NCBI RefSeq assembly: GCF_004362405.1
Contig: NZ_SNXE01000002.1
Span: 248,001-312,000, forward strand
From: Roseateles asaccharophilus
Lineage (GTDB): Bacteria; Pseudomonadota; Gammaproteobacteria; Burkholderiales; Burkholderiaceae_C
Direction of reading: 5' to 3'
Length of the DNA stretch: 64,000 nt
Below the pieces are notes generated by a model. The model saw only the letters and a list, made by a program, of their open reading frames with translations, searched no databases and had not been told where the DNA came from. Position 1 is the first letter of the stretch. Every line of letters begins with the position of its first letter. Position numbers and translations under genes: made by a program. Below are positions 8,692 to 32,174 of the stretch, piece after piece.

Positions 8692-10135
8692 CACGCCGGT
8701 GTTGCCCGACGCGTCGGCGCCTCATGCCGGCGTCTTTGCCGTCGCCTACAGCGGCGGCCGCGATTCCACCGCCCTGCTGCACCTGAGCGCACGTCAGGCC
8801 CAAGCCCTGGGCCTGCGTGTGCTGGCCCTGCATGTGCACCATGGCCTGAGCGCCAATGCCGATGCCTGGCTGGCGCATTGCGAGTCGCAGTGCCAGACCT
8901 GGGCCGCCCAGGGCCTGCCGCTGAGCTTTCATTTCCGTCGTCTTGACGGGGCGCCTGCCGCCGGCCAGAGCATCGAGGCCTGGGCCCGCGAGGGGCGCTA
9001 TCGCGCGCTGAGCGAGATGGCCGTGCAGGGCGGAGCCCTTCTGCTTCTGCTGGCCCAGCATCGCCGCGACCAGGCCGAAACCTGGCTGCTGCAGGCCCTG
9101 CGCGGCGCGGGCGCGGCGGGCCTGGCGGCCATGCCGGCCCATCAGACACGCGAGCAAGGCCTGGTCTGGGCTCGACCCTGGCTGGACCAACCGCGCGAGG
9201 CCGTCGAAGCCTATCTGGCCGAGCAGGGCCTGAGCTTCATCGACGATGACAGCAATACCGATGCGCGCTACGCTCGCAACCGCCTGCGTCTGCAGGTCTG
9301 GCCCCAGCTGAGTGCCGCGTTTCCCGGAGCCGAGGCGGCGTTGAGCCAGTCCGCCCAGTGGGCCCAGCAGGCGCTGGAACTGCAGCGCGAGCTGGCGGCG
9401 CAAGACCTGCCCCCGTTGTGCTCGGACCAGGGCCTGGATGTGGCGGTGCTGCTCGGGCTTTCACCCGCGCGAGCCAGCAATGCCCTGCGGGCCTGGTTGC
9501 AGCAGACCCTGGGTCAGGCCGCACCTGCCAGCCTGGTGCAACGCCTGCTGAGCGAGCTGCCTGGGCGTCGCGTCGGCACCTGGCCTTGCGGAGCGGGCGA
9601 GCTGCGGCTTTACCGGGGCAGGCTGAGCCTTGGGGCTGCAGCCGCGCACGATCTCCCGGCCGAGTACGGCCCGCTGGACCTCAGCCGGCCCGGCTTTCAT
9701 GCCCTACCGCAGGCTGGTGGTGGATGGTGGGTGGAACCGGCCGGGGAGGGCGGGGCCGCCTTGCCCGCCTCGCTGCTGCAGTCCGTGCATGCACGGCCGC
9801 GGCAGGGCGGCGAGCAGTTCCAGTCGCAGCCGCGCGGCCTGCCCCGCAGCCTCAAGAAATGCTTTCAGGCGGCGGCCGTGCCGGCCTGGCAGCGCGGCGG
9901 ACCGCTGCTCTTCGCGGGCGATCGCCTGCTCTGGGTGCCGGGGCTGGGGGCGGATGCGCGCGCCTGGGCCGAAGCCGGCACGCCGGGGCTGAAACTGCGC
10001 TGGCAGGCCGATTCTGTGCCCGCTCTGTAACGTCCATGTCAGTTTTGCTGCAGCGCGGCAGCTAGAATCTTGGGCTGCGAAAAGCGGCGCAAACTGCCCG
10101 ATTCCGGGCCCCGACTCCCGCGTTGAAGATTCCCC

Positions 10136-14350: not shown

Positions 14351-16036
14351 TTACATGCCGGCGTAGTTGGGACCACCGCCGCCCTCGGGCGTGACCCAGA
14401 CGATGTTCTGCGTCGGGTCCTTGATGTCGCAGGTCTTGCAGTGCACGCAGTTCTGGGCATTGATCTGCAGGCGGTCGCTGCCATCGTCGTTCTTGACGAA
14501 CTCATACACGCCGGCCGGACAATAGCGGCCCTCGGGGCCGGCAAAGCGCGCCAGATTGGTGGCCACGGGCACGCTGGCGTTCTTCAGCGTCAGATGGGCC
14601 GGCTGGTTTTCCTCGTGGTTGGTGTTGGAGATGAACACCGAGGAAAGGCGGTCGAAGGTCAGCTTGCCATCGGGCTTGGGATAGTCGATGGGCTGGCACT
14701 CGGCGGCCGGCTTGAGGCAGACATGGTCCGGGTGCGTGGCGTGCAGGGTCCAGGGCGGGCTTTGCACGCCCAGCTTGGGCAGCAGCCATTGCTCGATGCC
14801 CGTCATCAGCTGGCCCACCAGCTTGCCCTTCTTGAACCAGAGCTTGAAGTTGCGGGTCTGCTGCAGCTCTTCGTTCAGCCAGCTGGCTTCAAAGGCGGCC
14901 GGGTAGGCGGCCAGCTCGTCCTGGGCACGGCCTTCGACCAGGGCCGGCACGATGGCTTCGGCGCAGAGCATGCCGCTCTTGATGGCGGCATGGCTGCCCT
15001 TGATGCGCGCAGCGTTCAGGTAGCCGGCATCGCAGCCGATCAGCGCACCGCCCGGGAACACCGTCTTGGGCAGGGCCTGGGGCGTGCCGTTGTTGATGGC
15101 GCGCGCACCGTAGCCGATGCGCTTGCCGCCTTCGATATGGGCGCGGATGGACGGATGCGTCTTCCAGCGCTGCATTTCCTCGAAGGGGCTCATATAGGGG
15201 TTCTGGTAGTCCAGACCGATCACAAAGCCCAGCGTGACCTTGTTGCCCTCCAAGTGGTAGAGGAAGCCGCCGCCGAAGGTGTCGTCCGTCATGGGCCAGC
15301 CGGCGGTGTGCACCACCAGGCCGGGCTTGGCCTTCTCGGCCGGGATCTCCCACAGTTCCTTGATGCCGATGGCATAGCTCTGCGGGTCCTTGCCGGCGCT
15401 CAGGTTGTACTTGGCGATCAGCTGCTTGCCCAGATGGCCGCGCGCGCCCTCGGCGAACACGGTGTATTTGCCCAGCAGCTCCATGCCCAGCTGGAAGCCC
15501 TCGTGCGGCTGGCCGTCCTTGCCTATGCCCATATTGCCCGTGGCCACGCCCTTGACGCGGCCCTCTTCGTCATAGAGCACCTCGGCCGCGGCAAAGCCCG
15601 GGAAGATTTCCACGCCCAGGTTCTCGGCCTGCTGGGCCAGCCACTTCACCACATTGGACAGCGAGATGACGTAGCAGCCCTCGTTGTGCAGATTGCGCGG
15701 CACCAGGGCGTCCGGGGTGCGGGTGGCGCCGGTCTCGGAGAGAAAGAGGATGTCGTCGCCGGTGACGGCCTGGTGCAGGGGCGCGCCCAGCTCCTTCCAG
15801 TTGGGGAAGAGCTCGCTCAGGGCGCGCGGGTCCATCACCGCGCCGGAGAGGATGTGGGCGCCGGGCTCGGAGCCCTTTTCCAGCACCACCACCGAGATCT
15901 CCTGGCCCTTCTCGGCGGCCAGCTGCTTGATGCGGATGGCGGTGGCCAGGCCGGCGGGACCGCCGCCCACGACCACCACGTCGTATTCCATGCTTTCGCG
16001 CGGGCCGTACTGGGCCACCAGGTCTTCGGAGCTCAT
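14351..16036 (-). CDS. Electron transfer flavoprotein-ubiquinone oxidoreductase (ETF-QO)
   Basis: A 561-residue inner-membrane-associated flavoprotein that passes electrons from reduced ETF, fed by acyl-CoA and other dehydrogenases, to ubiquinone. The FAD-binding GGGPAGLATAIRIKQ lies near residue 25. The C-terminus has the 4Fe-4S ligands in CVHCKTCDIKDPTQNIVW, preceded by RFAGPEGRYCPAGVYEF. Length and domain order match mitochondrial and bacterial ETF-QO. etfAB is not in the window. It is divergent from an SDR gene. Confidence 0.96.
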   Translation of the reverse strand: MSSEDLVAQYGPRESMEYDVVVVGGGPAGLATAIRIKQLAAEKGQEISVVVLEKGSEPGAHILSGAVMDPRALSELFPNWKELGAPLHQAVTGDDILFLSETGATRTPDALVPRNLHNEGCYVISLSNVVKWLAQQAENLGVEIFPGFAAAEVLYDEEGRVKGVATGNMGIGKDGQPHEGFQLGMELLGKYTVFAEGARGHLGKQLIAKYNLSAGKDPQSYAIGIKELWEIPAEKAKPGLVVHTAGWPMTDDTFGGGFLYHLEGNKVTLGFVIGLDYQNPYMSPFEEMQRWKTHPSIRAHIEGGKRIGYGARAINNGTPQALPKTVFPGGALIGCDAGYLNAARIKGSHAAIKSGMLCAEAIVPALVEGRAQDELAAYPAAFEASWLNEELQQTRNFKLWFKKGKLVGQLMTGIEQWLLPKLGVQSPPWTLHATHPDHVCLKPAAECQPIDYPKPDGKLTFDRLSSVFISNTNHEENQPAHLTLKNASVPVATNLARFAGPEGRYCPAGVYEFVKNDDGSDRLQINAQNCVHCKTCDIKDPTQNIVWVTPEGGGGPNYAGM

Positions 16037-16120
16037 GTGTTTCCTTGTGTCTCAACGATTGTGTGGGCGCCCAGCTGGGCCGCGATTTGGCGCCGCATTC
16101 TACCGATGCGTGCAGAAAAA

Positions 16121-16140
16121 TAGCACGATCGTTCGATTTT
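16121..16140. promoter_or_regulatory. Candidate operator in the ETF-QO/SDR divergent region
   Basis: ACGATCGT (16125-16132) is an 8-base palindrome within TAGCACGATCGTTCGATTTT, in the otherwise featureless 225-base gap 16037-16261. The half-site resembles TetR-type operators that control fatty-acid oxidation genes in betaproteobacteria, by my recollection; the assignment is tentative. Confidence 0.3.
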
Positions 16141-16261
16141 GATTTGGGTGCTGGCCTCTAGCGGGGAAGGCGGGGCTTGGCCGAGCCGACCCAGCGAAGC
16201 GCCGTGGTGGCCCATGCTATCGTTTCCGTCCAGCAGTCTGAGTGATGGAAAGAGACAGATC

Positions 16262-17044
16262 ATGAGCTATAGCATCGACCTCTCGGGCCGCGTGGCCCTG
16301 GTGACCGGAGCTTCCAGCGGACTGGGTGCGCAGTTCGCGCGCACCCTGGCCCAGGCCGGCGCTTGTGTGGTGCTGGCGGGTCGCCGCACTGAACGGCTCA
16401 AGACCCTGCGCGCCGAGATCGAGGCCCAGGGGGGCGACGCCCATGTGGTGCATCTGGACGTCACCGATCTGGACAGCATCAAGTCCGCCGTCGCTCATGC
16501 CGAGACCGAGGTCGGCACCCTGGACATCCTGATCAACAACTCCGGCGTCAGCACCACGCAGAAGCTCACCGAGGTCAGCGGCGATGACTACGACTTCGTG
16601 ATGGACACCAATGTGCGTGGCGCCTTCTTTGTCGCGCAGGAGGTGGGCAAGCGCATGCTGGCGCGCGCGCGCGGTGCGGCGCCGGGCACCTTCATCGGCG
16701 GGCGCATCGTCAACATTGCCTCGATGGCCGGCCTGCGTGTGCTCAGCCAGATCGGGGTCTACTCGATGAGCAAGGCCGCGGTGATCCACATGACCCGCGC
16801 GATGGCGCTGGAATGGGGCAAATACGGCATCAACGTCAACGCCATTTGCCCCGGCTATATCGACACCGAGATCAACCACCATCACTGGAGCACCGAAGGT
16901 GGCAAGAAGCTGGTCGAGCTGCTGCCGCGCAAGCGTGTCGGTCATCCGCGCGACCTGGACACCGCCTTGCTGATGCTCTGTGCCAATGAAAGCCACTTCA
17001 TCAACGGTGCGGTGATCCAGGCCGACGACGGCTTCGGAGTCTGA
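16262..17044 (+). CDS. Short-chain dehydrogenase/reductase (SDR)
   Basis: A 260-residue classical SDR. The nucleotide-binding motif TGASSGLG is at 15-22, NNSG at 92-95 and the catalytic Y167-x3-K171 (YSMSK), with PGYIDTEIN after it. The FabG-like sequence suggests a 3-oxoacyl or 3-hydroxyacyl-CoA reductase, and the ETF-QO and thioesterase neighbours make an acyl-CoA role plausible, but the substrate cannot be read from sequence. ATG 16262 follows an AAAGAGACAG purine-rich stretch. The stop is five bases from yceH. Confidence 0.9.
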   Translation: MSYSIDLSGRVALVTGASSGLGAQFARTLAQAGACVVLAGRRTERLKTLRAEIEAQGGDAHVVHLDVTDLDSIKSAVAHAETEVGTLDILINNSGVSTTQKLTEVSGDDYDFVMDTNVRGAFFVAQEVGKRMLARARGAAPGTFIGGRIVNIASMAGLRVLSQIGVYSMSKAAVIHMTRAMALEWGKYGINVNAICPGYIDTEINHHHWSTEGGKKLVELLPRKRVGHPRDLDTALLMLCANESHFINGAVIQADDGFGV

Positions 17045-17049
17045 GCACC

Positions 17050-17697
17050 ATGTCGCTTCGTGTATTGACGGCGCTGGAAGCGCGCGTGCTGGCCGTGCTG
17101 GTCGAGAAGCAGTTCACCGTGCCCGACAGCTACCCGCTCTCGGTCAACGCCCTGACCCTGGGCTGCAACCAGAAGACCGCGCGCGATCCGGTGATGAATG
17201 CCAGTGAGAGCAAGGTGCTGCGCGCGCTGGACGAGTTGCGCGGCATGAGCCTGGTGAACCGCGTCAGCGGCAGCCGGGTGGACCGCTATGAGCACAACTT
17301 CCGCCGCGGCATCAATGTGCCGGGGCAGGCCGAGGCCCTGCTGGCCACCCTGATGCTGCGCGGCCCGCAGACGGCGGCCGAGCTGCGCGCCAACAGCGAA
17401 CGCCTGCACCGCTTTGCCGACATTTCCTCGGTCGAGGCCTTTCTGACCGAGCTGGCCGAGCGCGAGCCGCCCCTGGCCCTGAAGCTGGCCCGTGCGCCCG
17501 GTGCGCGCGAGAGCCGTTGGGCGCATCTGTTGTGTGGCGAGCCGGCCGAGGGGCTGTCGGCCGCAGCGGCGGGCGAAGCACCCGCGCGCGACGATGAGAT
17601 CCTGCAGCTGCGCGCCGAGCAGGCCCGGCTGGCGGCCGAGCTGGAAACGGTCAAGGCGCAGCTGGCGCAGATCCGCAGCGAGCTGGGGCTGGCATGA
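17050..17697 (+). CDS. YceH family protein (DUF480)
   Basis: A 215-residue homologue of E. coli YceH, a conserved protein with two winged-helix domains (about residues 5-90 and 95-165) whose function is not established. Signatures include EARVLAVLVEKQFTVPDSYPLSVNAL and CNQKTARDPVM. A C-terminal predicted coiled coil (EILQLRAEQARLAAELETVKAQLAQIR) follows. The stop overlaps the next start by four bases. Confidence 0.9.
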   Translation: MSLRVLTALEARVLAVLVEKQFTVPDSYPLSVNALTLGCNQKTARDPVMNASESKVLRALDELRGMSLVNRVSGSRVDRYEHNFRRGINVPGQAEALLATLMLRGPQTAAELRANSERLHRFADISSVEAFLTELAEREPPLALKLARAPGARESRWAHLLCGEPAEGLSAAAAGEAPARDDEILQLRAEQARLAAELETVKAQLAQIRSELGLA

Positions 17698-18116
17698 GGA
17701 TAGAGATTCCTGCGGACAAGAAGCTGGTCCACGAGACCCTCATCCCGATCCGCTGGGGCGATATGGACGCGATGGGCCATGTCAACAACACGGTCTACTT
17801 CCGCTACATGGAGATCGCGCGCGTGGACTGGCTGGACAGCCTCAAGGCGGCGCCCAACCCCCAGGGGGAGGGCCCGGTGATCGTCAACGCCTTCTGCAAT
17901 TTCTACAAGCAGCTTGAGTACCCCGGCGAGGTGCTGACCCGCCACTACGTCTCCAATGCGGGCCGCAGCAGCTTCGACACCTGGATCACCATGGCCCGCG
18001 CCGATGATCCGCAGACCCTCTACGCCGCGGGGGGCGCCACCACGGTGTGGATGGACTTCCCGTCCCAGCGCTCAGCGCCCCTGCCGGACTGGCTGCGCCG
18101 CATCGTGGAGGGCTGA
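17694..18116 (+). CDS. Acyl-CoA thioesterase, 4HBT family
   Basis: A 140-residue hotdog-fold thioesterase. RWGDMDAMGHVNNTVYFRYMEIAR is the 4-hydroxybenzoyl-CoA thioesterase signature, with the aspartate of GDMDAMGH at the catalytic position. It is expected to hydrolyse small acyl- or aroyl-CoA esters in the cytosol. The ATGA overlap (17694-17697) couples it to yceH, and the unit closes at the terminator at 18158. Confidence 0.9.
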   Translation: MRIEIPADKKLVHETLIPIRWGDMDAMGHVNNTVYFRYMEIARVDWLDSLKAAPNPQGEGPVIVNAFCNFYKQLEYPGEVLTRHYVSNAGRSSFDTWITMARADDPQTLYAAGGATTVWMDFPSQRSAPLPDWLRRIVEG

Positions 18117-18200: not shown

Positions 18201-20984
18201 TTAGCGGAACGAGTAGCTGATGCTGGCGTAGAAGGTACGGCCACGCGGGTCGGTGTAGGTGGGGTCGTAGGTGGCCAGGAAGTACTGGTCCTGGTTGGAG
18301 AACGGCGGCTGGGTATCCAGCAGGTTCTGGATGCCCACGCGCACGCGCATGGACTTGTCCACCTTCCACGAGCCGCTCAAGTCAAACAGCGAGTAGGCCT
18401 TGACGGTGCGGGGCTCGGCCTGCTTGTTCGTCACCGGGTTGAAGATGGTGCTCTGGTCAGCGTAGCTGGAGTAGAAGGTGTTGCCCAGCGTCAGACCGAA
18501 GGGGCCCATATCCCAGTCGATGCTGGCGCGATGACGCCAGCGCTGGATGACCTGGTCATTCAGGAAGCGACCGACATTGCTGACGAAGGGCTCACCCGCA
18601 CCGAACTGACGCTTGTACTCCAGCACATAGGTGCCGCTGAGATTCAGGCCGAAGCGTCCAAACTCCGTGCTGTCACTACGCCAGTTGGCTTCCAGGTCCA
18701 GACCCGAGGTCTTGAGCTCGCCTTGGTTCTCCTTGCGCAGGTCGATGTTGGTGATGACCTCGCCAAACTCGTCACGCGTCACCAGCTTGCCGTACTTGGC
18801 CTGGTTGTTGATGATGGTCTGGATGCCGATATCGCTGATCACATCGGTCTTGCGGATGTTCCAGTAGTCGATGCTGAATGTGGTCGACCTGGTGGGCTCG
18901 AACACGATGCCGAAGGAGGCCTGCTTGGAACGCTCCGGCTTCAGGTTCGGGTTGCTGTAGCGAGTCACGGGCGGCTGGCCCGAGCAGTCCGCCGGCGACA
19001 GGCCGGCCTTCACGCAGACCGGATCGGTCGGCGAGGCCGAGGCGGAACCGTAGCTGATCGGACGGTACAGCTCGCTGATGGTCGGGGCGCGGAAGCCCGT
19101 ACCGGCGGAGCCGCGCAGCATCACTTGCTTGCTGGGCTGGTAACGCACGCCCAGCTTGGGATTGGTCGTGCTGCCCACACCGCCGTAGTCGTCGTAGCGC
19201 AGCGCGACCTGGACTTCCAGCTCCTTGGTGAACGGTGCATTCAGTTCGCCGTAGACGCTGCCGATCTTGCGGCTGTTGCTGGTGGCCACCACACGGTCGC
19301 GCACGGGGTCACCGCCAAAATTGCCGGTGGCGTCGCCCGAGGTGCCGCGGTCGCCAGCGATCAGATTGCTGTTCAGCAGCGCCGAGGGCGTGAAGGAGGT
19401 CTCTTCCTGACGCAGCTCCGCGCCGACGGCCACGCCCAGCGCGCCGCCCGCCAGTTCGGTCAGCGTGCTGCTGGCCTTGAAGTCCACCGTGGTCGTGATG
19501 CCCTTGGCCTTGCGGGCGTCGTCACGGACGCGGATGCTGTCCCAGAGCGCCTTGCCAGCGGCCGGCGAGGCACCGAAGGGATTGATCGAGCCGTTCATGA
19601 CGCCTGCGACCATCTTGTCGAACAGGAAGTAGCCATCAACGTAGGCGTCGTTGGTCTTGTTCACGGCACGATTCAGCGCCGTTGTGTAATCCCAGTCGCC
19701 CAGCACACCGCTGACGCCCACGACGACGCGCTCTGCGTCGCTGGTGACCGTGTTGCTGCGATTGCCGGCCTCATCGGCGCGCAGGCGCAGGGTCATGAGC
19801 TGGGTATCGGGCAGCGGCAGCTTGTTGCTCAGATAGCCGTTGATGACCTTGACCGGCACATCCAGCAACTGCACCGGCACCGGGCTGTTGATGTATTTGG
19901 TGGTGGCGCGGGACTTGAGCAGCTCGGCGAACAGCTCGGTGTCGGCATTGAGCTTGAGGACCCCGCGGCTCAGTAAGGACAGCTTCTCGCTCTCGGGATA
20001 GATCTCGGTGTCCTGCAGATAGTCGAAGCTGCAGGCCTGGCTCAGGTTCAGCGGCGCGAACACGGTGCCGGGCGGGTTGCAGGCGGGCACGGCGGGATTG
20101 AAGGTGCGCTCCGTCACATCCTGGCCGTTGACCTTGTAGCCGGCGGCCTTCAGGGCGGCCAACTGGGCGCGGCGCGAGCTGCTGCTGCCCTGCAGCCGGA
20201 TATTGGCCGGGAAGGTGCGCGAGGACAGGTACAGGGGCAGGTTGTCGGCCAGCGGACGCTGCTTGATGAAGTCACGCTCCTGCGAATTCAGCGCACCGAG
20301 CTTCTGAACATCGAGCACGCCGAACAGATTGAAGCCGTCATCACGCACATTGCCGACGCCGCCTCCCACCGAGGCGGTGGTCTTCTCGGCGCCGCCCTCT
20401 TGGGTGCGTGCAGCGTAGACATTGATGTCCGCACCGCGATAGTCCTTGCGTGTGATGAAGTTGATCACGCCGCCGATGGCGTCGGTGCCATAGATGGCGG
20501 AGGCGCCGTCCTTGAGGATTTCGACGCGCTCGATCGCACCCGCGGGGATGTTGTTCAGGTCCACGCCGGAGCTGTCGCCGGGCGAGGCGAAGTTGGCCAT
20601 GCGGCGGCCGTTCAGCAGGATCAGGGTCGAGGAGACACCGATGCCGCGCAGGTTGGCGCCGTTGAAGCCACGCTGACCGCCCTGGTTGTCGGTGATGCTG
20701 GCGCCATCGGTCAGACCGGCCGTGTTGCCGCTGATGTTCTTCAGCAGCTCGGCCGCCGTGGTGACACCGGACTTGGCAATCTCTTCGCGCTTGAGCGTCT
20801 GTACCGGCAGGGCGGTCTCGCCCTCCAAGCGCTTGATGCTGGAGCCGGTCACCTCAATGCGTTCCAGCTTGTTGTCCTGCGCCAGCGCGGCGCCGCCCGC
20901 GAGCAGTGCGGCGGCCTGGGCCAGGGCTTGCAGTTTCAGGAACCGGGCGGGCGAGGCGCGGCGCGGCATGCGGGGCAGTGACAT
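18201..20984 (-). CDS. TonB-dependent outer-membrane receptor, linked to the cyanophycin locus
   Basis: A 927-residue receptor with a signal peptide (LQALAQAAALLAGGAALAQ; cleavage near residue 36), a TonB-box-like IEVTGSSIKR, a plug domain (about 50-170; LLNGRRMA, VEILKDGASAIYGTDAIGGVINF) and a 22-strand barrel ending in ...YASISYSFR. There is no N-terminal signalling extension. ATG 20984 is chosen because the signal peptide follows it; the frame stays open upstream without signal. It is divergent from the cyanophycinase operon and shares its palindrome-bearing control region, so it probably imports cyanophycin fragments or dipeptides. That substrate is inferred from context; the family as a whole carries siderophores, vitamins, peptides and glycans. 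Confidence 0.92.
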   Translation of the reverse strand: MSLPRMPRRASPARFLKLQALAQAAALLAGGAALAQDNKLERIEVTGSSIKRLEGETALPVQTLKREEIAKSGVTTAAELLKNISGNTAGLTDGASITDNQGGQRGFNGANLRGIGVSSTLILLNGRRMANFASPGDSSGVDLNNIPAGAIERVEILKDGASAIYGTDAIGGVINFITRKDYRGADINVYAARTQEGGAEKTTASVGGGVGNVRDDGFNLFGVLDVQKLGALNSQERDFIKQRPLADNLPLYLSSRTFPANIRLQGSSSSRRAQLAALKAAGYKVNGQDVTERTFNPAVPACNPPGTVFAPLNLSQACSFDYLQDTEIYPESEKLSLLSRGVLKLNADTELFAELLKSRATTKYINSPVPVQLLDVPVKVINGYLSNKLPLPDTQLMTLRLRADEAGNRSNTVTSDAERVVVGVSGVLGDWDYTTALNRAVNKTNDAYVDGYFLFDKMVAGVMNGSINPFGASPAAGKALWDSIRVRDDARKAKGITTTVDFKASSTLTELAGGALGVAVGAELRQEETSFTPSALLNSNLIAGDRGTSGDATGNFGGDPVRDRVVATSNSRKIGSVYGELNAPFTKELEVQVALRYDDYGGVGSTTNPKLGVRYQPSKQVMLRGSAGTGFRAPTISELYRPISYGSASASPTDPVCVKAGLSPADCSGQPPVTRYSNPNLKPERSKQASFGIVFEPTRSTTFSIDYWNIRKTDVISDIGIQTIINNQAKYGKLVTRDEFGEVITNIDLRKENQGELKTSGLDLEANWRSDSTEFGRFGLNLSGTYVLEYKRQFGAGEPFVSNVGRFLNDQVIQRWRHRASIDWDMGPFGLTLGNTFYSSYADQSTIFNPVTNKQAEPRTVKAYSLFDLSGSWKVDKSMRVRVGIQNLLDTQPPFSNQDQYFLATYDPTYTDPRGRTFYASISYSFR

Positions 20985-21133
20985 GGTGAGTGGGCCTTGT
21001 TGACGGGGTTGCGGATGCGGCTGTGCAGCGGGGCTCTGCGTCAGGGCAGGGCGGGTAGGGGCTGGCGACAGGCCTGGCACGCACTCTAGAAAGCGGGCGG
21101 GCTCGGCCGTGAGGGGGTTTTGGCGGGGCGGTC

Positions 21134-21204
21134 GCTTTGGCGCAAGTGCGGGTCGCTTGCATGCAAGCCTTGTGACGGTCGCGCTTCGGGGCTTGCATGC
21201 AAGC
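21134..21204. promoter_or_regulatory. Operator array between the TonB receptor and cyanophycinase genes
   Basis: The 330-base divergent gap (20985-21314) contains two identical 14-base palindromes GCTTGCATGCAAGC at 21155-21168 and 21191-21204 (centres 36 bases apart). A degenerate copy, GCTTTGGCGCAAGT, lies at 21134-21147, its centre 21 bases (two helical turns) before the first. They are likely binding sites for the regulator of both transcription units. No other gene or convincing promoter was found in this gap. Confidence 0.65.
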
Positions 21205-21314
21205 GACATGCATTTGCCGGCATTGCGCGCTGCGGCACACTCCGGGGCCAAACCCGCTGGTGGGTAGGCAGGGGCGTCGGCAAGATCGCGCCACTTTTCA
21301 ACCCGCCTGATCCC

Positions 21315-22559
21315 ATGCCTGCCCTCGCACGACTCCGATTTGTTGCCGCTTGCGCCGCCTTGCTGGCCGGTGCTGCCGGCGCCCAGACCGCCATTCCCAT
21401 CGGCGGCGCCCTCAAGTACGACAACCATGCGGTGTGGAAGCGCATCGTCGACGAGGCCGGCGGTCCCGGTGCCCGATTCGTGGTGTTCAGCACCGCCGCC
21501 GCCAATCCCGAGCGCAGCGCGCGCCAGATCGTGGAGGCGCTCAATCGCCAGGGCGCACAGGCGCAGTGGGTGCCCGTGGCGCCGCGTTTGAAAGACCGCG
21601 ATCTGAAGACCGAGCTGGAGAACCCCGCCAATCTGGAGCTGGTGCGCCATGCCCGCGGCGTCTATTTCTCCGGCGGCGCCCAGGAGCTGATCGTGGACAC
21701 CTTGCAGCCCGCTGGCCAGCCCACGGCGCTGTTGCAGGCGATCTGGGAGGTCTATCGCGGCGGCGGCGTGGTGGCCGGCAGCAGCGCCGGCGCCGCCATC
21801 ATGAGCACCGTGATGTTCCGGGACGCCCAGGACACCCTGCGCGTGCTCAAGGGCCAGCTGCGCGAGGGCCGGGAGATCGACCGCGGCCTGGGCTTTGTGG
21901 GGCCCGAGCTTTTCATCGACCAGCACTTTCTCAAGCGTGGCCGCTTTGGTCGCATGCTGCCCCTGATGCAGGCCAAGGGCTACCGCCTGGGCCTGGGCGT
22001 GGACGAGGACAGCGCCGCCATCATCAAGAACGGTCAGATTGAGGTGATTGGCGCCAAGGGTGCCTTGCTGGTGGATCTGTCCCAGGCCCGTCACGAGCCG
22101 CAGCTCGGCGCCTTCAATGTGCGCGGAGCCCAGCTGAGCTATCTGGACCGCGGCGATCGCCATGATCTGAAGACCGGCGTGACCACCCCCTCGCCGCAGA
22201 AGGCCGCCGACCTGGCCATCGATCCCAAGGCCCCGAACTTCAAACCCTACTTCAAGAGCGTGCCCTTCTATGCGGACATGCTGGGCGACACCACGGTGGT
22301 GAACGCCATGGGCACCCTGCTGGACAGCCCGGCCGGCGAGACCCTGGGTCTGGCCTTCGCCGGCACCCCGGCGGCCGATGACAGTCAGCCGGACCTGGGC
22401 TTCGAGTTCCGGCTCTACAAGACGCCCGCCACGCGTGGCTGGTTCACCGGCGCTTTCGGGGGCGAGGACTACACCGTGGTCCGCATGGGCCTGGACGTGA
22501 TGCCGGTCCAGATACAGCGTCCCCTCTACCGTCTGATGCCTGTTCAGACCTCGCGCTGA
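21315..22559 (+). CDS. cphE: Secreted cyanophycinase (CphE type, peptidase family S51)
   Basis: A 414-residue cyanophycinase with a signal peptide (residues 1-23, AGA-Q cleavage), so it acts in the periplasm or outside the cell. S51 enzymes are serine exopeptidases that release beta-Asp-Arg dipeptides from cyanophycin. The nucleophile elbow is AGSSAGA with the catalytic Ser at 157; GGGVVAGSSAG, FSGGAQ and FIDQHFLKRGRFGRM match the family. The ~120 extra C-terminal residues are typical of extracellular CphE rather than the shorter intracellular CphB. No cyanophycin synthetase (cphA) is in the window, supporting scavenging. First gene of a run of six in one direction. Confidence 0.9.
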   Translation: MPALARLRFVAACAALLAGAAGAQTAIPIGGALKYDNHAVWKRIVDEAGGPGARFVVFSTAAANPERSARQIVEALNRQGAQAQWVPVAPRLKDRDLKTELENPANLELVRHARGVYFSGGAQELIVDTLQPAGQPTALLQAIWEVYRGGGVVAGSSAGAAIMSTVMFRDAQDTLRVLKGQLREGREIDRGLGFVGPELFIDQHFLKRGRFGRMLPLMQAKGYRLGLGVDEDSAAIIKNGQIEVIGAKGALLVDLSQARHEPQLGAFNVRGAQLSYLDRGDRHDLKTGVTTPSPQKAADLAIDPKAPNFKPYFKSVPFYADMLGDTTVVNAMGTLLDSPAGETLGLAFAGTPAADDSQPDLGFEFRLYKTPATRGWFTGAFGGEDYTVVRMGLDVMPVQIQRPLYRLMPVQTSR

Positions 22560-22568
22560 AAGCCCCCC

Positions 22569-23690
22569 ATGAGAAGCGAGATTCACGCGCTGCCGGCGGC
22601 GAGCGCCGGCACGACACGCCTGTTGCGCAGCCTGCATTTCGGCACGGGCCAGAGCGGGCGCAAGGCCTATATCCATGCGGCCCTGCACGCCGACGAGGTG
22701 CCGGCCATGCTGGTGGCCCAGCATTTGCGTCAGCGCCTGCTGGCGCTGGAGGCCCAGGGCTTGATCACGGGCGAGGTCGTGCTCCTGCCCCTGGCCAATC
22801 CCGTGGGCCTGTCCCAGGATCTGCAAGGGGCGCATTTCGGCCGCTTCGATGCGGCCACGGGCCTGAACTTCAACCGCGCCTATCGCCACCTGACCCAGGC
22901 CCTGATTCCCCGCCTGGAGCCGCTGCTGGGCCAGGACGGCGAGATCAACAAGCAGCTGGTGCGTCGCGAGGCCCTGGCCTTGCTCGCGGATTGGCAGCCC
23001 CAGACCGAGACCGAGGCGCTCAAGCAGCTGCTGCAGCGTCTGGCCATGGACGCCGATGTGGTGCTGGACCTGCACTGCGATCACCAGGCGGTGATGCATC
23101 TCTATGCCGGCACGCCGCTGGAGGCCCCGGCGCGTGAGCTGGGCGCCTTGCTGGGGGCTCAGGCCCTGCTGCTGGCCCGGGCTTCGGGCGACGACCCCTT
23201 TGACGAGACCATCTCTCGCATCTGGTGGGAGCTGGCCGAGCATTTCGCGGGCCGCTTCCCCATTCCCCAGGCCTGCTTTGCCGCCACGGTGGAGCTGCGT
23301 GGCGAGACCGAGACCGACCACGGCCTGGCGGCCGGTGATGCGCTGGCCTTGCTGGCCTTTTTGCAGCGCCAGGGCCTGATCGAAGGTCCGCCCCTGCTGC
23401 CCCTGCCCGCCGAGCGCTGCGAGCCCACGCCGCTGGAGGGGGTGGAGCCGCTGACGGCCCCGCATGCCGGTCTGCTGGTCTTTGCCAAGGCACCGGGCGA
23501 CTGGGTCGAGGCCGGAGATCTGGTGGCCGAGCTCATCGATCCGCTCAATGACACCGTCACCCCCTTGCGCGCCAGCGTCTCAGGTCGGCTGTTCGCCCGC
23601 GTCTCGCGACGCTGGGCCGGGCGTGGCATGCGCGTGGCCAAGGTGGCCGGCGCCCAGGCCTATCGCAGCGGCAAGCTGCTCTCCATGTGA
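22569..23690 (+). CDS. cphZ: M14/aspartoacylase-family hydrolase, probable beta-Asp-Arg dipeptidase (CphZ/AotO type)
   Basis: A 373-residue zinc hydrolase of the succinylglutamate desuccinylase/aspartoacylase group. The likely zinc ligands are H40 and E43 (HADE) and H169 (DLHCDH), with E242 (TVELRGE) at the catalytic glutamate position. There is no signal peptide, so it is cytosolic. Generic annotation would be succinylglutamate desuccinylase, but AotO of the Pseudomonas aeruginosa aot operon, of the same family, is known as a cyanophycin dipeptide hydrolase (CphZ). The position here between cyanophycinase and an ArgR-type regulator matches that function: splitting beta-Asp-Arg to Asp and Arg. 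Function is inferred from family and context. Confidence 0.8.
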   Translation: MRSEIHALPAASAGTTRLLRSLHFGTGQSGRKAYIHAALHADEVPAMLVAQHLRQRLLALEAQGLITGEVVLLPLANPVGLSQDLQGAHFGRFDAATGLNFNRAYRHLTQALIPRLEPLLGQDGEINKQLVRREALALLADWQPQTETEALKQLLQRLAMDADVVLDLHCDHQAVMHLYAGTPLEAPARELGALLGAQALLLARASGDDPFDETISRIWWELAEHFAGRFPIPQACFAATVELRGETETDHGLAAGDALALLAFLQRQGLIEGPPLLPLPAERCEPTPLEGVEPLTAPHAGLLVFAKAPGDWVEAGDLVAELIDPLNDTVTPLRASVSGRLFARVSRRWAGRGMRVAKVAGAQAYRSGKLLSM

Positions 23691-23700
23691 GATCCTTTCG

Positions 23701-25089
23701 ATGAAACTGCGTCTACCCAATACCTTCGTCCTGCTCTTCGCCCTGCTGGCCGTGATCGCCCTGGCCACCTGGGTGGTGCCCGGCGGCCAGTACGACACCC
23801 TCATGCTCAATGGCAAGAAGGTGGTCAACCCCGACTCCTTCCGCTGGGTGGAGAGCCGCCCCCAGGGCCTGGTGGCCCTGATGATGTCGCCCATCAAGGG
23901 CTTTGTGGAGGCGGGGCTCATCATCGGCTTCGTGCTCATCGTGGGTGGCACCTTTGCCGTGCTGCAGCAGAGCGAGGCCATCGATGCGCTGATCAAGTCG
24001 GTGGCGCGCGCCCACAGCCGCTCGGCCTTTGTGCGCGTGGCCCTGATTCCCATCTTCGTCACGCTCTTCTCCATTGGCGGCGCCACCTTCGGCATGGCCG
24101 AGGAGGCCATTCCCTTCGTGCTGATCTTCATTCCCCTGGCCCTGGCCCTGCGCTATGACAGCGTGGTGGGCGCGGCCATCCCCTTCGTGGGCTCGCAGAT
24201 CGGCTTTGCCACCGCCTTCCTCAATCCCTTCAATGTGGGCGTGGCCCAAGGCATCGCGCAGGTGCCCATGTTCTCGGGCCTGGGCTATCGTTTTCTGTGC
24301 TGGGCGGTGTTCACGACCCTGACCATCGCCTTTCTGATGTGGTACGCCGCCCGCATCAAGCGCGACCCGCGCCTGAGCCCGACCTTCGAGCTCGACGAGG
24401 AGAAGCGCCGCAATCTGGACTTGGCCGCCTTTGAGCAGTTCAGCGGCATGACCCGCACCCACAAGGCGGTGCTGGCCCTGTTCGTGGGCACCCTGGGCGC
24501 CATGATCGTGGGCGTGGTGAAGTTCGGCTGGTACATCGAGGAGATTGCCGCGCTCTTCCTGTCCATGGCCATCCTGGTGGGCGTGGTGGCGCGGCTCGGC
24601 CAGGAGCGCTGGGTGGCCGCCTTTGTGGGCGGCGCCAAGGACCTGGTGGGCACGGCCCTGGTGATTGCCCTGGCCAAGGCCACCGTGATCCTGATGCGCG
24701 ATGGCCACATCATCGACACCCTGCTGCATGCTCTGGTGCCCTATGTGGAGTCCGCCAGCCCGGTGTTCGCCGCGCAGAAGATGTTCGTCATCCAGTCGGT
24801 GATCAACTTCTTCATCCACAGCGGCACCGGTCAGGCCGCGCTGACCATGCCCATCATGGCGCCCTTGGCCGATCTGGTGGGTGTCACGCGCCAGACCGCC
24901 ATCCTGGCCTTCCAGTTCGGCGAGCTGAGCACGCCCATCATCCCCACCTCGGGCATCACCGTGGGCGTGCTGGCCCTGGCCGGCATTCCCTTCGGCCGCT
25001 GGGTGCGCTGGATGCTGCCGCTGCAGGTGGTGTATTTCCTCGTGGCCCTGGCCCTGCTCGTGCCGCCCGCGCTCACGCAGTGGCAGTAA
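23701..25089 (+). CDS. YfcC-family transporter, candidate importer of beta-Asp-Arg or arginine
   Basis: A 462-residue polytopic inner-membrane protein of the YfcC/DcuC-like family, with about 11-12 hydrophobic segments. It begins MKLRLPNTFVLLFALLAVIALATWVVPGGQY, and contains the family motif FGMAEEAIPFVLIFIPLALALRYD and two re-entrant-like segments (AFLNPFNVGVAQG, INFFIHSGTGQAALTMPIMAPLADL). The YfcC substrate is not firmly known; basic amino acids and dicarboxylates have been proposed. It lies ten bases after cphZ and nine before the regulator. In Pseudomonas the equivalent job is done by the aot ABC transporter, so this may be an alternative dipeptide importer. Confidence 0.85.
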   Translation: MKLRLPNTFVLLFALLAVIALATWVVPGGQYDTLMLNGKKVVNPDSFRWVESRPQGLVALMMSPIKGFVEAGLIIGFVLIVGGTFAVLQQSEAIDALIKSVARAHSRSAFVRVALIPIFVTLFSIGGATFGMAEEAIPFVLIFIPLALALRYDSVVGAAIPFVGSQIGFATAFLNPFNVGVAQGIAQVPMFSGLGYRFLCWAVFTTLTIAFLMWYAARIKRDPRLSPTFELDEEKRRNLDLAAFEQFSGMTRTHKAVLALFVGTLGAMIVGVVKFGWYIEEIAALFLSMAILVGVVARLGQERWVAAFVGGAKDLVGTALVIALAKATVILMRDGHIIDTLLHALVPYVESASPVFAAQKMFVIQSVINFFIHSGTGQAALTMPIMAPLADLVGVTRQTAILAFQFGELSTPIIPTSGITVGVLALAGIPFGRWVRWMLPLQVVYFLVALALLVPPALTQWQ

Positions 25090-25098
25090 AGTGCTCGC

Positions 25099-26094
25099 GT
25101 GAACCCCGCCGCCCCGCTGCCTACCCGTCGCTGCGCGCTGCTCTTGCTGCCCGGCGGCACGGCGCTGGCCGCGGCGGGCCTGCTCGAAGCGCTGGGGCGG
25201 CTCAATGAGCTGCAGGACGAGGTTCGCTACGAGCCCGTCTGTCTGAGCCTGGGGGAGGGCGCCGGTGCCCTGCGCAGCCGCCCGATGCGCTCGGAGGAGC
25301 GCGACTGGTTTGCCTTCTTCGTGATCGGCGGCGACGACAGCCTCGCCGCCTCGCCCGGCCTGCAGCTGCTGCTGCGCGACCTGGTCGCCGCCGGCGTGGC
25401 GCACCTGGGGGCCGTGGGCAGTGGCAGCCTCTGCCTGGCCCGGGCCGGCCTGCCGGCGGGGCGCCGCATGACGGCCGACTGGTCCCTGATCGATGCGCTG
25501 CGCAGCGACCATCCCGAGGTGGTCTGGTGCAACCAGGTCTGGGAGATGGACCTGGCCCGCGCGCCCGCCCTGCTGAGCTGTGCCGGCGGCGCCTCCAGCC
25601 TGGACCTGGCCTGCGCCTGGGCGGCCAGTCTTCATGGCGAGCGTGCGGGTCAGCAGCTGGCCGTGCTGCTCGGGCTGGAGCAGGTGCGCGGCCGCGAGGT
25701 GCGGCCCCGGGTGCCGGAGCAGGGCGGGCGCACCAGCGCCAAGCTGGCCGAGGCCTTGGCCCTGATGGAAGCCAATCTGGCCGAGCCCCTGCCCACCGAG
25801 GAGGTGGCGCGCCTGGTGGGCGTGTCGCGCCGCCAGCTGGAGCGCTTGTTCAAGCAGCACCTGGATTCTCTGCCTTCGCGTCACTATCTGGAGCTGCGGC
25901 TGCAGCGGGCGCGCCGCCTGCTGCAGCACAGCGGGCAATCCATACTCCAGATCGGTCTGTCCTGCGGCTTCTCCTCGGGGCCGCATTTTTCCAATGCCTA
26001 CAAGGCCGCCTTTGGCCGTACCCCGCGGGAGGAGCGCAGCGCCGGCGCGCGCGCCGCCCTGCCGTGGCGCGCCAGCGGAGAATCCAGCGCATGA
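25099..26094 (+). CDS. argR: ArgR-type AraC-family transcriptional regulator
   Basis: A 331-residue GlxA-like regulator with an N-terminal DJ-1/PfpI-type domain (about 10-190) and a C-terminal AraC double helix-turn-helix (about 215-325): EEVARLVGVSRRQLERLFKQHL and SILQIGLSCGFSSGPHFSNAYKAAFG. The C-terminus closely resembles Pseudomonas ArgR, the arginine-responsive activator of aot, aru and ast genes (unrelated to E. coli ArgR). The N-domain has no obvious catalytic cysteine, fitting a ligand sensor. A GTG start at 25099 is used; the stop overlaps aruF by four bases. It probably controls this locus through the 21134-21204 sites. Confidence 0.85.
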   Translation: MNPAAPLPTRRCALLLLPGGTALAAAGLLEALGRLNELQDEVRYEPVCLSLGEGAGALRSRPMRSEERDWFAFFVIGGDDSLAASPGLQLLLRDLVAAGVAHLGAVGSGSLCLARAGLPAGRRMTADWSLIDALRSDHPEVVWCNQVWEMDLARAPALLSCAGGASSLDLACAWAASLHGERAGQQLAVLLGLEQVRGREVRPRVPEQGGRTSAKLAEALALMEANLAEPLPTEEVARLVGVSRRQLERLFKQHLDSLPSRHYLELRLQRARRLLQHSGQSILQIGLSCGFSSGPHFSNAYKAAFGRTPREERSAGARAALPWRASGESSA

Positions 26095-27140
26095 GCCCTG
26101 CCCACGACCTGCTGCTGCGCCCGGTGGCGCCCGAGGATCTGCCCGCCCTGGAGCGCATCGCCGCGGCCACGGCCGATGGCATCAGCTCCCTGCCCGAGGA
26201 CCGCGAGCGCCTGCGCGAGCGCATCGAGCGTTCCTGCCAGGCCTTTGCCAGCGAGGACGCGGCCAGCGGCGAGGAGACCTATCTCTTCGTGCTGGAGGAG
26301 CGTGGCCGGGTGATAGGCAGCAGCGGCATCGCCGCCAGCGCCGGCTTTCACGATCGCTTCTACAGCTACCGCAATGAGTTCGTGGTCCATGCCTCGGCGG
26401 CCCTGGGGGTGAGCCAGCGTCTGCACACCCTGCATCTGTGCCACGACCTCACCGGTGTGACCCTGCTCACCAGCTTCTATATCGAGCCCGCCTACGAGGC
26501 CGGTCTGGCGCCGCAGCTGCTCTCGCGCGCGCGCCTGCTCTTCATCGCCCTCTTTGCCGAACGCTTCAACAGCCGCATTGCGGCCGAGCACCCGGGCCTG
26601 GTGGATGCGCAAGGCCACAGCCCCTTCTGGGATGCGGTGGGGCGGCGTTTTTTCAATATGGACTATGCCCAGGCCGAGAAGGTGGTGGGCGGGCGCAGCA
26701 AGGCCTTCATCGCCGATCTGATGCCGCATTCCCCGGTCTATGTGCCCCTGCTGCCCGAGGCGGCGCAGTTCGCCATCGGCCAGCTCCACCCCGTGGGCGA
26801 GCTGCCCTTCGGCATCCTGCAGGACGAGGGCTTTGATGCCGACACCTATATCGACATCTTCGACGGCGGCCCCACGGTGGAAGGGCGCTTGGAGCTGCTG
26901 CGCAGCGTGCGTCAGGCGCGACGCCTTGCCTTGCGGCCGGGCGCGCTGGGCCTGGGCCAAGAGCATTGGCATCTGGTCTGTACCGAGCGGCGCCGTGACT
27001 TCCGCGCCAGCCTGGCCCGGCTGCCGGCCGGCGTCCAGGAGCTCTCGCCCGAGCACCGGGTCTTCGAGCGCCTGGGCCCGCCGCCCGGCGCGAGCGTGAT
27101 GGTCTCGCCGCTGGATGCGGTTCAGGAGGAGCTGCGATGA
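26091..27140 (+). CDS. aruF: Arginine N-succinyltransferase (AstA/AruF)
   Basis: First enzyme of the arginine succinyltransferase (AST) pathway, transferring succinyl from succinyl-CoA to the arginine alpha-amino group. The 349-residue protein carries the family landmarks LLRPVAPEDLPALERIA, FYSYRNEFVVHAS, TLHLCHDLTGVTLLTSFYIEP, GHSPFWDAVGRRFFNMDY and a C-terminal FDGGPTVE. It overlaps the regulator by four bases and the next gene by four bases. In pseudomonads the enzyme is a heteromer of AruF and AruG. The remaining AST enzymes are not in the window. Confidence 0.93.
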   Translation: MSPAHDLLLRPVAPEDLPALERIAAATADGISSLPEDRERLRERIERSCQAFASEDAASGEETYLFVLEERGRVIGSSGIAASAGFHDRFYSYRNEFVVHASAALGVSQRLHTLHLCHDLTGVTLLTSFYIEPAYEAGLAPQLLSRARLLFIALFAERFNSRIAAEHPGLVDAQGHSPFWDAVGRRFFNMDYAQAEKVVGGRSKAFIADLMPHSPVYVPLLPEAAQFAIGQLHPVGELPFGILQDEGFDADTYIDIFDGGPTVEGRLELLRSVRQARRLALRPGALGLGQEHWHLVCTERRRDFRASLARLPAGVQELSPEHRVFERLGPPPGASVMVSPLDAVQEELR

Positions 27141-27883
27141 GCGACGTCCGGTACTCGCTGCGCGCCTGGACCTCGGCGGACGAGGCCGTGTGCGCCCAAT
27201 GGCGCAACCAGGCCGGTCAGCCTCCCGCGGCGCCCGCGCCCGAAGAGCAGGCCCTGGTGCTGTGCGATGCCGACGGTCGCCCCCAGGCCTGCGCCCGGCT
27301 GCGCCCACACCTGGGCCTGGACATCCCCCGCTACAGCTTCCACATCGGGCGGGCGGTGCATGCGGCGGCCGAGCTGGGCCTCTACCACTGTCAGGACACG
27401 CTCTTGCTGGGCAATGACCACACGGGGGAGGCCGAGCTGGTGGACCTGGCTTGTGCGCCCGACTGCCCGCAGCCCCAGCAGGCCTTGAGCGCCTTGCTGG
27501 AGGCCCTGCTCAAGCCCTGGCTGGCCGACCCCGCCAACCGCGGGCGTCAGCTGGTGGTGGAGCTGGCCGGCTGGCGGCGGGCCGATGGCCGCTCGCCCTT
27601 CTGGGACGGGCTGGGACGCCTTTTCTACCCCGCAGACCCGACCCCGCAGCGCGCGCGCTGGGGCGAGGCCTGGCCCGCGCATCTTGCCGCCCTGATGCCG
27701 CGTCAGACCCTGTATCTCTCCTTTCTGGCCGAACCGGCGCGACAGGCCCTGGGCCGCGCGCACGAGGGCGCCGCTCCGGCCCTGCAAGCCCTGGCGACCC
27801 AGGGCTTTGCCTACAGCCGTCATGTGCGCATCGATGACGGCGGCCCCATCTGGGTCTTGCAGGCCAGCACGCGGCTGGGCTGA
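27137..27883 (+). CDS. aruG: Diverged second arginine succinyltransferase subunit (AruG-like)
   Basis: A 248-residue protein that aligns with the C-terminal two thirds of its neighbour: GRSPFWDGLGRLFYPAD against GHSPFWDAVGRRFFNMDY, LMPRQTLYLSFLAEPARQALGRAH against LMPHSPVYVPLLPEAAQFAIGQLH, and IDDGGPIW against FDGGPTVE. It is about 100 residues shorter and more diverged than typical AruG, with a reduced N-terminal acyltransferase region. It overlaps aruF by ATGA. The simplest reading is a regulatory or structural partner of AruF. A weak CCCGC-TTG-GCGGG hairpin (27887-27899) follows the stop. Confidence 0.75.
   Translation: MSDVRYSLRAWTSADEAVCAQWRNQAGQPPAAPAPEEQALVLCDADGRPQACARLRPHLGLDIPRYSFHIGRAVHAAAELGLYHCQDTLLLGNDHTGEAELVDLACAPDCPQPQQALSALLEALLKPWLADPANRGRQLVVELAGWRRADGRSPFWDGLGRLFYPADPTPQRARWGEAWPAHLAALMPRQTLYLSFLAEPARQALGRAHEGAAPALQALATQGFAYSRHVRIDDGGPIWVLQASTRLG

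Positions 27884-30404: not shown

Positions 30405-32174
<1,770 letters not shown>

Follow-up and report, generated by a model that had tools for sequence, protein, structure and literature searches.

Seven genes of Roseateles asaccharophilus probably form a single arginine-responsive unit that draws on extracytoplasmic cyanophycin, a polymer that stores nitrogen and is rich in arginine; judging from sequence, we place the probability of this reading at about 0.72. The genes lie between positions 18201 and 27883 of the window, the whole 64,000-nucleotide stretch analyzed here (contig NZ_SNXE01000002.1 of assembly GCF_004362405.1, positions 248,001 to 312,000). They encode an outer-membrane TonB-dependent transporter (TBDT) and, divergently from it, a predicted exported cyanophycinase (CphE), a predicted beta-Asp-Arg hydrolase (CphZ), a YfcC-family permease, an AraC-type regulator, and AruF and AruG, two proteins of the arginine/ornithine succinyltransferase family. 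We read them as a cyanophycin-use unit under one switch because of the presumed catalytic residues that are kept, the compartments read from the sequences, the conserved neighborhood, and the putative ArgR boxes between the two arms. An initial annotation had described the genes as one pathway that delivers arginine to the arginine succinyltransferase (AST) pathway; the cyanophycin-use unit and its single switch stand in our analysis, and the entry into the AST pathway does not.

The gene set and its predicted compartments

The TBDT gene (18201 to 20984, minus strand) encodes 927 residues with a Plug match of 84 bits and a beta-barrel match of 165 bits, each above its Pfam cut-off. Divergent from it, on the plus strand, are cphE (21315 to 22559), encoding a 414-residue cyanophycinase of the extracellular type; cphZ (22569 to 23690), whose product is a dipeptide hydrolase of the CphZ/AotO type that passes the PF24827 cut-off; and yfcC (23701 to 25089), encoding an inner-membrane permease of the DcuC/YfcC family that passes PF03606 (333 bits) and scores below the cut-off of NF008611 (361 bits, cut-off 500). 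They are followed by the gene for an AraC-type regulator of the ArgR/GbdR kind with a GTG start (25099 to 26094; HTH_18, 80 bits); by aruF (26091 to 27140), for an arginine/ornithine succinyltransferase alpha-like subunit (PF04958, 360 bits; PDB 1yle, E 1e-92); and by aruG (27137 to 27883), for a shortened and divergent AstA-family subunit of 248 residues (PF04958, 119 bits; PDB 1yle, E 2e-18). The gaps from cphE to the regulator gene measure 9, 10, and 9 bases and are followed by two 4-base overlaps up to aruG, in agreement with the spacings of 4-base overlaps to 10 bases given initially. The gene set named in the initial annotation is likewise borne out by gene calls and by Pfam and NCBIfam matches for each protein, with reservations on the scores.

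CphE matches the solved cyanophycinases PDB 7uqv (E 1e-21) and 3en0 (E 2e-12), with which it aligns at the active-site motifs, including the DQHF...R.R stretch; it also passes the Pfam S51 cut-off (31.3 bits, cut-off 23.9). Residues S157, H204, and E231, presumably the catalytic Ser/His/Glu of cyanophycinases, are invariant across three genomes of the genus. A PHROGs search with CphE returned no match. With the presumed Ser/His/Glu kept, CphE is predicted to be a cyanophycin hydrolase, and its N terminus carries a hydrophobic leader sequence, judged by eye. For CphZ, PDB 8ein (E 3e-74) and 8eip (2e-73) stand far ahead of the following entry (7e-22). Both are deposited under the name succinylglutamate desuccinylase, and we take them to be CphZ structures; CphZ has a Glu at the position that is Ala in 8eip, which we assume to be catalytic. 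No NCBIfam model matched CphZ at E 0.001. These nearest solved relatives point to a beta-Asp-Arg hydrolase. No leader sequence was seen by eye in CphZ, suggesting that the dipeptide would cross the inner membrane before being split.

Conserved neighborhood and putative ArgR boxes

We surveyed cphE neighborhoods in a scan of named genomes, using the best 80 of 167 CphE relatives; the counts lean to close relatives, and most of the 80 loci carry the names Roseateles, Paucibacter, Pelomonas, Mitsuaria, or those of their kin. Locus counts rest on tblastn hits with chosen score limits, since the open reading frame (ORF) caller took wrong-strand frames in places, and contig ends cut some loci (for example, L026, L043, L049, L052, L062, and L098). 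A TBDT gene is present in 62 of the 80 (in L082 it is not adjacent), cphZ in 33, the regulator gene in 26, and aruF with aruG in 25; the regulator, aruF, and aruG occur together in 25. The exact order of the window recurs in 15 loci and in a second genome of the genus (G002), where the whole locus is present, a recurrence beyond chance that upholds the proposed grouping. Five of these 15 carry an extra TBDT-cphE pair upstream, and two have an arginase gene downstream.

Among the 33 loci with cphZ, YfcC is encoded in 22 and an Aot-type ABC transporter in 11, and the two were never seen together (L026, which bears on this count, ends directly after cphZ). AotJ, AotQ, AotM, and AotP are all present in L031, L033, L092, L096, and L099. 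The best models for the ABC genes of L096, L042, L027, and L144 are of the HisQ/HisM/HisP type together with a lysine/arginine/ornithine binding protein, mostly below curated cut-offs. Loci of this type run cphE-aotJ-aotQ-aotM-cphZ-aotP-argR-aruF-aruG, which we take to be the Pseudomonas aot order with cphE in front, and in one relative (L099/L144) a single run reads TBDT-cphE-aotJQM-cphZ-aotP-argR-astC-aruF-aruG-astD-astB, with a full-length aruG. Because YfcC stands where sister loci have the Aot-type ABC transporter, its likely cargo, by analogy, is beta-Asp-Arg or arginine.

Three putative ArgR boxes lie in the gap between the TBDT gene and cphE. Excerpts of PMC10963909 give TGTCGCN6GNAA as the ArgR box consensus, the tandem copies standing 5 bp apart with a spacing that varies in P. 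putida, and describe ArgR boxes as responding to arginine in Pseudomonas. Boxes 1 (21130 to 21145) and 2 (21151 to 21166), both GGTCGC-N6-GCAA on the plus strand and 5 bp apart, carry G for the first consensus T and otherwise follow the published consensus, and box 3 (21193 to 21208), inverted on the minus strand toward the TBDT gene, matches TGTCGCN6GNAA in full. These three are the only matches to GTCGCN6GNAA in the window. The stricter form GTCGCTTNNNNGCAA has four sites in the genome that contains the window (G000), three of them at the locus, and three in G002, two of them at the locus; another genome of the genus (G001) has a single site, located away from the locus. The fourth exact site in G000 (C4:22804), between genes named by eye as asd- and fimV-like, looks like chance. 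A further candidate, the palindrome GCTTGCATGCAAGC (12-base core at two places in the genome), was considered as the operator of an unknown palindrome binder and dropped: it is degenerate in G002, where the ArgR-box pattern is kept, and it probably represents part of boxes 2 and 3. Scanning for promoters gave no sigma-70 match in their vicinity.

For the box count we took the region upstream of cphE in the window, in L015, and in all of the 80 loci except L049 and L098, whose sequence is too short, giving 80 regions in total; expected numbers come from 50 first-order Markov samples of each region. Where the locus has the regulator, 27 of 28 regions carry boxes, 76 in all versus 0.66 expected; where it does not, 7 of 52 do, with 10 boxes versus 1.08 expected. 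Among the 28 regulator-bearing regions, the 21-base tandem pair is present in 24, as is an inverted box; L096 has no box and L099 has one. On the regulator-less side, L026 has all three boxes but ends before a regulator could show, L093 has the tandem pair and AotJQM with no regulator seen, and five other regions have one site each; L062 is counted as box-less, yet a tandem pair sits upstream of its second cphE. Loci L059, L063, and L101 to L105, which have cphZ and a transporter and no regulator, have zero boxes upstream of cphE. Over the 80 loci there are 133 box sites in 1.56 Mb, and 21-base tandem pairs occur in 25 of them as well as in the window and L015, without exception upstream of a cphE. 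The pattern supports one switch for both divergent arms, acting through putative ArgR boxes.

In the scheme that we propose, CphE would meet cyanophycin or short pieces of it extracellularly or in the periplasm, and the TBDT would move soluble pieces or dipeptides across the outer membrane. YfcC would take beta-Asp-Arg (or arginine) inward, in the role of the Aot-type ABC transporter of sister loci, and CphZ would split the imported dipeptide. The regulator would sense arginine and switch on both arms through the ArgR boxes, and AruF and AruG would acylate arginine or ornithine. If true, this describes a route by which Burkholderiales of the Roseateles group could gain nitrogen from cyanophycin outside the cytoplasm, with an outer-membrane importer, an exported cyanophycinase, and CphZ joined under one arginine switch; it names YfcC as a likely importer of beta-Asp-Arg or arginine, and it presents an arginine succinyltransferase retained without its known pathway.

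Other architectures surround cphE elsewhere. A second locus type, seen in 14 of the 80 (L050, L065, L068, L069, L072, L075 to L079, L081 to L083, and L086), has a TBDT gene and two cphE copies with no cphZ or regulator, mostly within window-like flanks. Genes for ETFQO, SDR, DUF480, and thioesterase proteins (14351 to 18116 in the window) flank differently built cphE loci in many genomes (L016, L065, and others), as if one chromosomal site held alternative cyanophycin gene sets. In the Janthinobacterium loci L101 to L105, yfcC-cphZ lies opposite in strand to TBDT-cphE, and no regulator or AruFG hit was found nearby. CphE relatives of 46 to 48% identity also occur on contigs of metagenome-assembled genomes labelled as cyanobacteria (L097 and L100; cphE at 10001), with any TBDT or cphZ hit absent from the fetched stretch. 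A check of L093, L059, and L063 for other enzymes gave one class V aminotransferase and two TGL-type proteins, with no clear link. Within the window, positions 30405 to 32174 encode a protein that, by eye, could be a TonB-like energizer: its end resembles TonB-C, and it has a long low-complexity stretch rich in Ala, Gln, and Arg.

AruF, AruG, and the fate of arginine

The AstA component is present, the two AstA-family matches of G000 being aruF and aruG of this locus. AruF alone passes the cut-off of the AOST subfamily model TIGR03243 (366 bits) and stays below that of the alpha-subunit equivalog TIGR03245 (381 bits, cut-off 458.8); AruG matches positions 53 to 260 of the 337-position PF04958 (AstA) model. 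We searched for AstB in 29 genomes (G000 to G002, five further ones, and those of every AruFG-bearing locus except L032, L034, L037, and L057, 21 of 25), for AstD, AstE, and arginase in 18, and for CphA in 28. In G000, nothing matched AstB at E 0.001, with the Escherichia coli and Caulobacter controls found. It was not found in 21 of the 23 searched genomes with AruFG at the cphE locus (exceptions, G010 and G023) and is present in 4 of 29 overall; among the six others searched, the two Janthinobacterium genomes have it. No AstD appeared in G000 at the strict limit of E 1e-150, and 3 of 18 genomes had one at that limit; its step could still fall to an aldehyde dehydrogenase of the general kind. 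For AstE, G000 yielded only partial 20-bit matches (cut-off 305.65) in a weak test, since none of the 18 genomes passed; G010 and G024 alone reached 259 and 282 bits, and G023 had none despite astB and astD. The two weak AstE-like matches in G000 were set aside, with no AST-like neighbors seen by eye in regions where the ORF caller is imperfect. With no AstB, AstD, or AstE found, arginine probably does not take the canonical AST route here, and the earlier proposal that it enters the succinyltransferase pathway is not supported; AruG, moreover, is short and divergent.

Arginase may instead supply ornithine, and it is the best-supported entry for the onward fate of arginine. Arginase-family matches occur in 16 of 18 genomes; the arginase of G000, encoded elsewhere in the genome, scores 286 bits (cut-off 227.6). 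In L028, from Roseateles violae, aruG is followed after 33 bases by an arginase gene, and in L037 the contig breaks off in the first part of one, about 1.9 kb past aruG.

To place AruF and AruG among their relatives, we use a tree of 62 rows with a midpoint root only. A branch (100/99) divides 25 AruF rows from cph loci from AST-operon AruF, with L099 and the L031/L033 pair directly outside the group at weaker support. The AruG part of the tree is unsure, as the program warns of meeting long branches and unlike letter make-up, mainly in AruG rows. In G004, G006, and G014 the AstA match crosses one TGA in AruG, which we provisionally take as the gene end; the AruG frames there measure 238 to 253 residues from the hit start. 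The cph-locus AruFG would appear to descend from a line that parted from AST and was either retained for some new or narrower task or is slowly decaying. We tentatively suggest, as a possibility well short of even odds, that AruF and the shortened AruG form a dedicated acyltransferase of cyanophycin use, in which arginase cuts arginine and the pair succinylates ornithine (or arginine) along an undescribed AstB-free route. It is unlikely that the two are functionless survivors from an AST pathway since lost: the AstB result in 21 of the 23 genomes and the short AruG with its long branches would fit such a loss, but both genes are present in 25 of the 80 loci, AruF is 57 to 91% identical to its relatives, and the 25 cph-locus rows group together, among them that of Niveibacterium, which keeps a separate AST pair outside the group.

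Source of the polymer and comparison with known systems

The initial annotation had reported no cyanophycin synthetase and had argued from this for feeding on polymer made by other cells. The absence holds within the 64-kb stretch and not in the genome, which encodes a tandem pair elsewhere, at C5 (TIGR02068, 964 bits with a cut-off of 850, and a 693-bit partner); the best PDB matches of this CphA are solved cyanophycin synthetases. CphA exceeds the cut-off in 25 of the 28 genomes searched. Since the genome encodes cphA, its absence cannot serve as an argument for scavenging, and external feeding is left plausible on the strength of the leader sequence and the TBDT.

Several observations weigh against reading the seven genes as one unit for cyanophycin from outside the cytoplasm. 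CphE scores 126.0 bits with TIGR02069, marginally short of the cut-off of 126.6. The regulator passes the cut-off for the AraC helix-turn-helix domain, its DJ-1/PfpI domain lies below the Pfam cut-off, and its best named NCBIfam model, GbdR, is far under its own (183 bits, cut-off 480). No cphZ is seen in 47 of the 80 cphE loci, and L055 combines cphE, the regulator, and AruFG with no cphZ or transporter seen. The box-bearing loci share ancestry, and their sites are not independent events. The TBDT is 48% identical to that of G002, against 81 to 97% for the flanking proteins, and its substrate is assigned through guilt by association. G001 carries cphE alone at this site, with flanking genes as in the window and no AstA-family match found in the genome; in a FastTree phylogeny of CphE, this copy clusters with nine other cphE-only loci (support, 0.95) and may represent a separate lineage, not what is left of a fuller locus. 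Finally, with a CphA pair encoded in the genome, CphE could serve polymer of the cell itself or of its kin.

Recycling of own or kin-released cyanophycin instead of foreign polymer, with CphE in the periplasm or acting on lysed sister cells, is nevertheless improbable. Cyanophycin is made in the cytoplasm, whereas CphE has a leader and the function of a TBDT is import; the locus is present in G007, G021, and G022 with no CphA match at E 1e-120 in the assemblies as they stand, and no second S51 peptidase fit to act as a cytoplasmic cyanophycinase was found in G000. What speaks for recycling is the CphA pair, the presence of CphA in most genomes searched, and an excerpt of PMC5690324 in which a similar gene set, the CphA pair and cyanophycinase of Janthinobacterium svalbardensis, is interpreted as storage and use. 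Very improbable is a general uptake unit for arginine/ornithine or peptides, in which the exported S51 peptidase would act on several substrates, cyanophycin among them: the TBDT and YfcC are named by family and not by substrate, and arginine is the signal for ArgR boxes in Pseudomonas (PMC10963909, in excerpt), but CphE and CphZ co-occur in 33 of the 80 loci and CphZ is far closer to 8ein/8eip than to other AstE-like entries.

Parts of the proposed cyanophycin-use unit have precedents. The cyanophycin utilization locus of Ben Hania et al. and the CphZ family, as cited in PMC10206079, offer one: that locus also brings a cyanophycinase, an isoaspartyl dipeptidase, and a transporter together, whereas the dipeptidase of the window is CphZ-like and not IadA or IaaA, the window adds a TBDT, an ArgR-type regulator, and AruFG, and the genome has cphA. 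The same paper names CphE of Pseudomonas anguilliseptica BI, an extracellular cyanophycinase too, a likeness by description and not by sequence. In Citromicrobium sp. JLT1363, a TBDT lies near a cyanophycinase as in the window and cyanophycin is predicted as its substrate; the excerpt does not name CphZ, a regulator, a permease, or AruFG (PMC3400609). Partial texts also suggest secreted or extracellular cyanophycin use for Pseudoalteromonas tunicata (PMC2536512) and Thalassotalea (PMC7564069). As for the novelty claimed initially, a TBDT near a cyanophycinase (PMC3400609) and utilization loci (PMC10206079) are thus already described in these excerpts, and the full combination was not found described in a search, mostly not of full texts, of the literature on cyanophycin, TonB, and aot/ArgR. 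A literature search for cyanophycinase with Roseateles found no paper.

By analogy, the locus may be a variant of the Pseudomonas aot-argR-aru arrangement joined to an exported cyanophycinase, with the transporter swapped and AruFG present without the pathway. That arrangement presumably comprises aotJQMOP-argR with aruCFGDBE adjoining, and AotO, encoded in the aot operon, is said in a 2023 PNAS paper on CphZ to be CphZ. The two have in common CphZ/AotO, an ArgR-type AraC regulator, ArgR boxes, and AruF/AruG, in the same order. Unlike the Pseudomonas arrangement, the window locus has YfcC in place of the ABC transporter and a shortened AruG, in a genome where AstB, AstD, and AstE were not found, and it adds the divergent TBDT and cphE.

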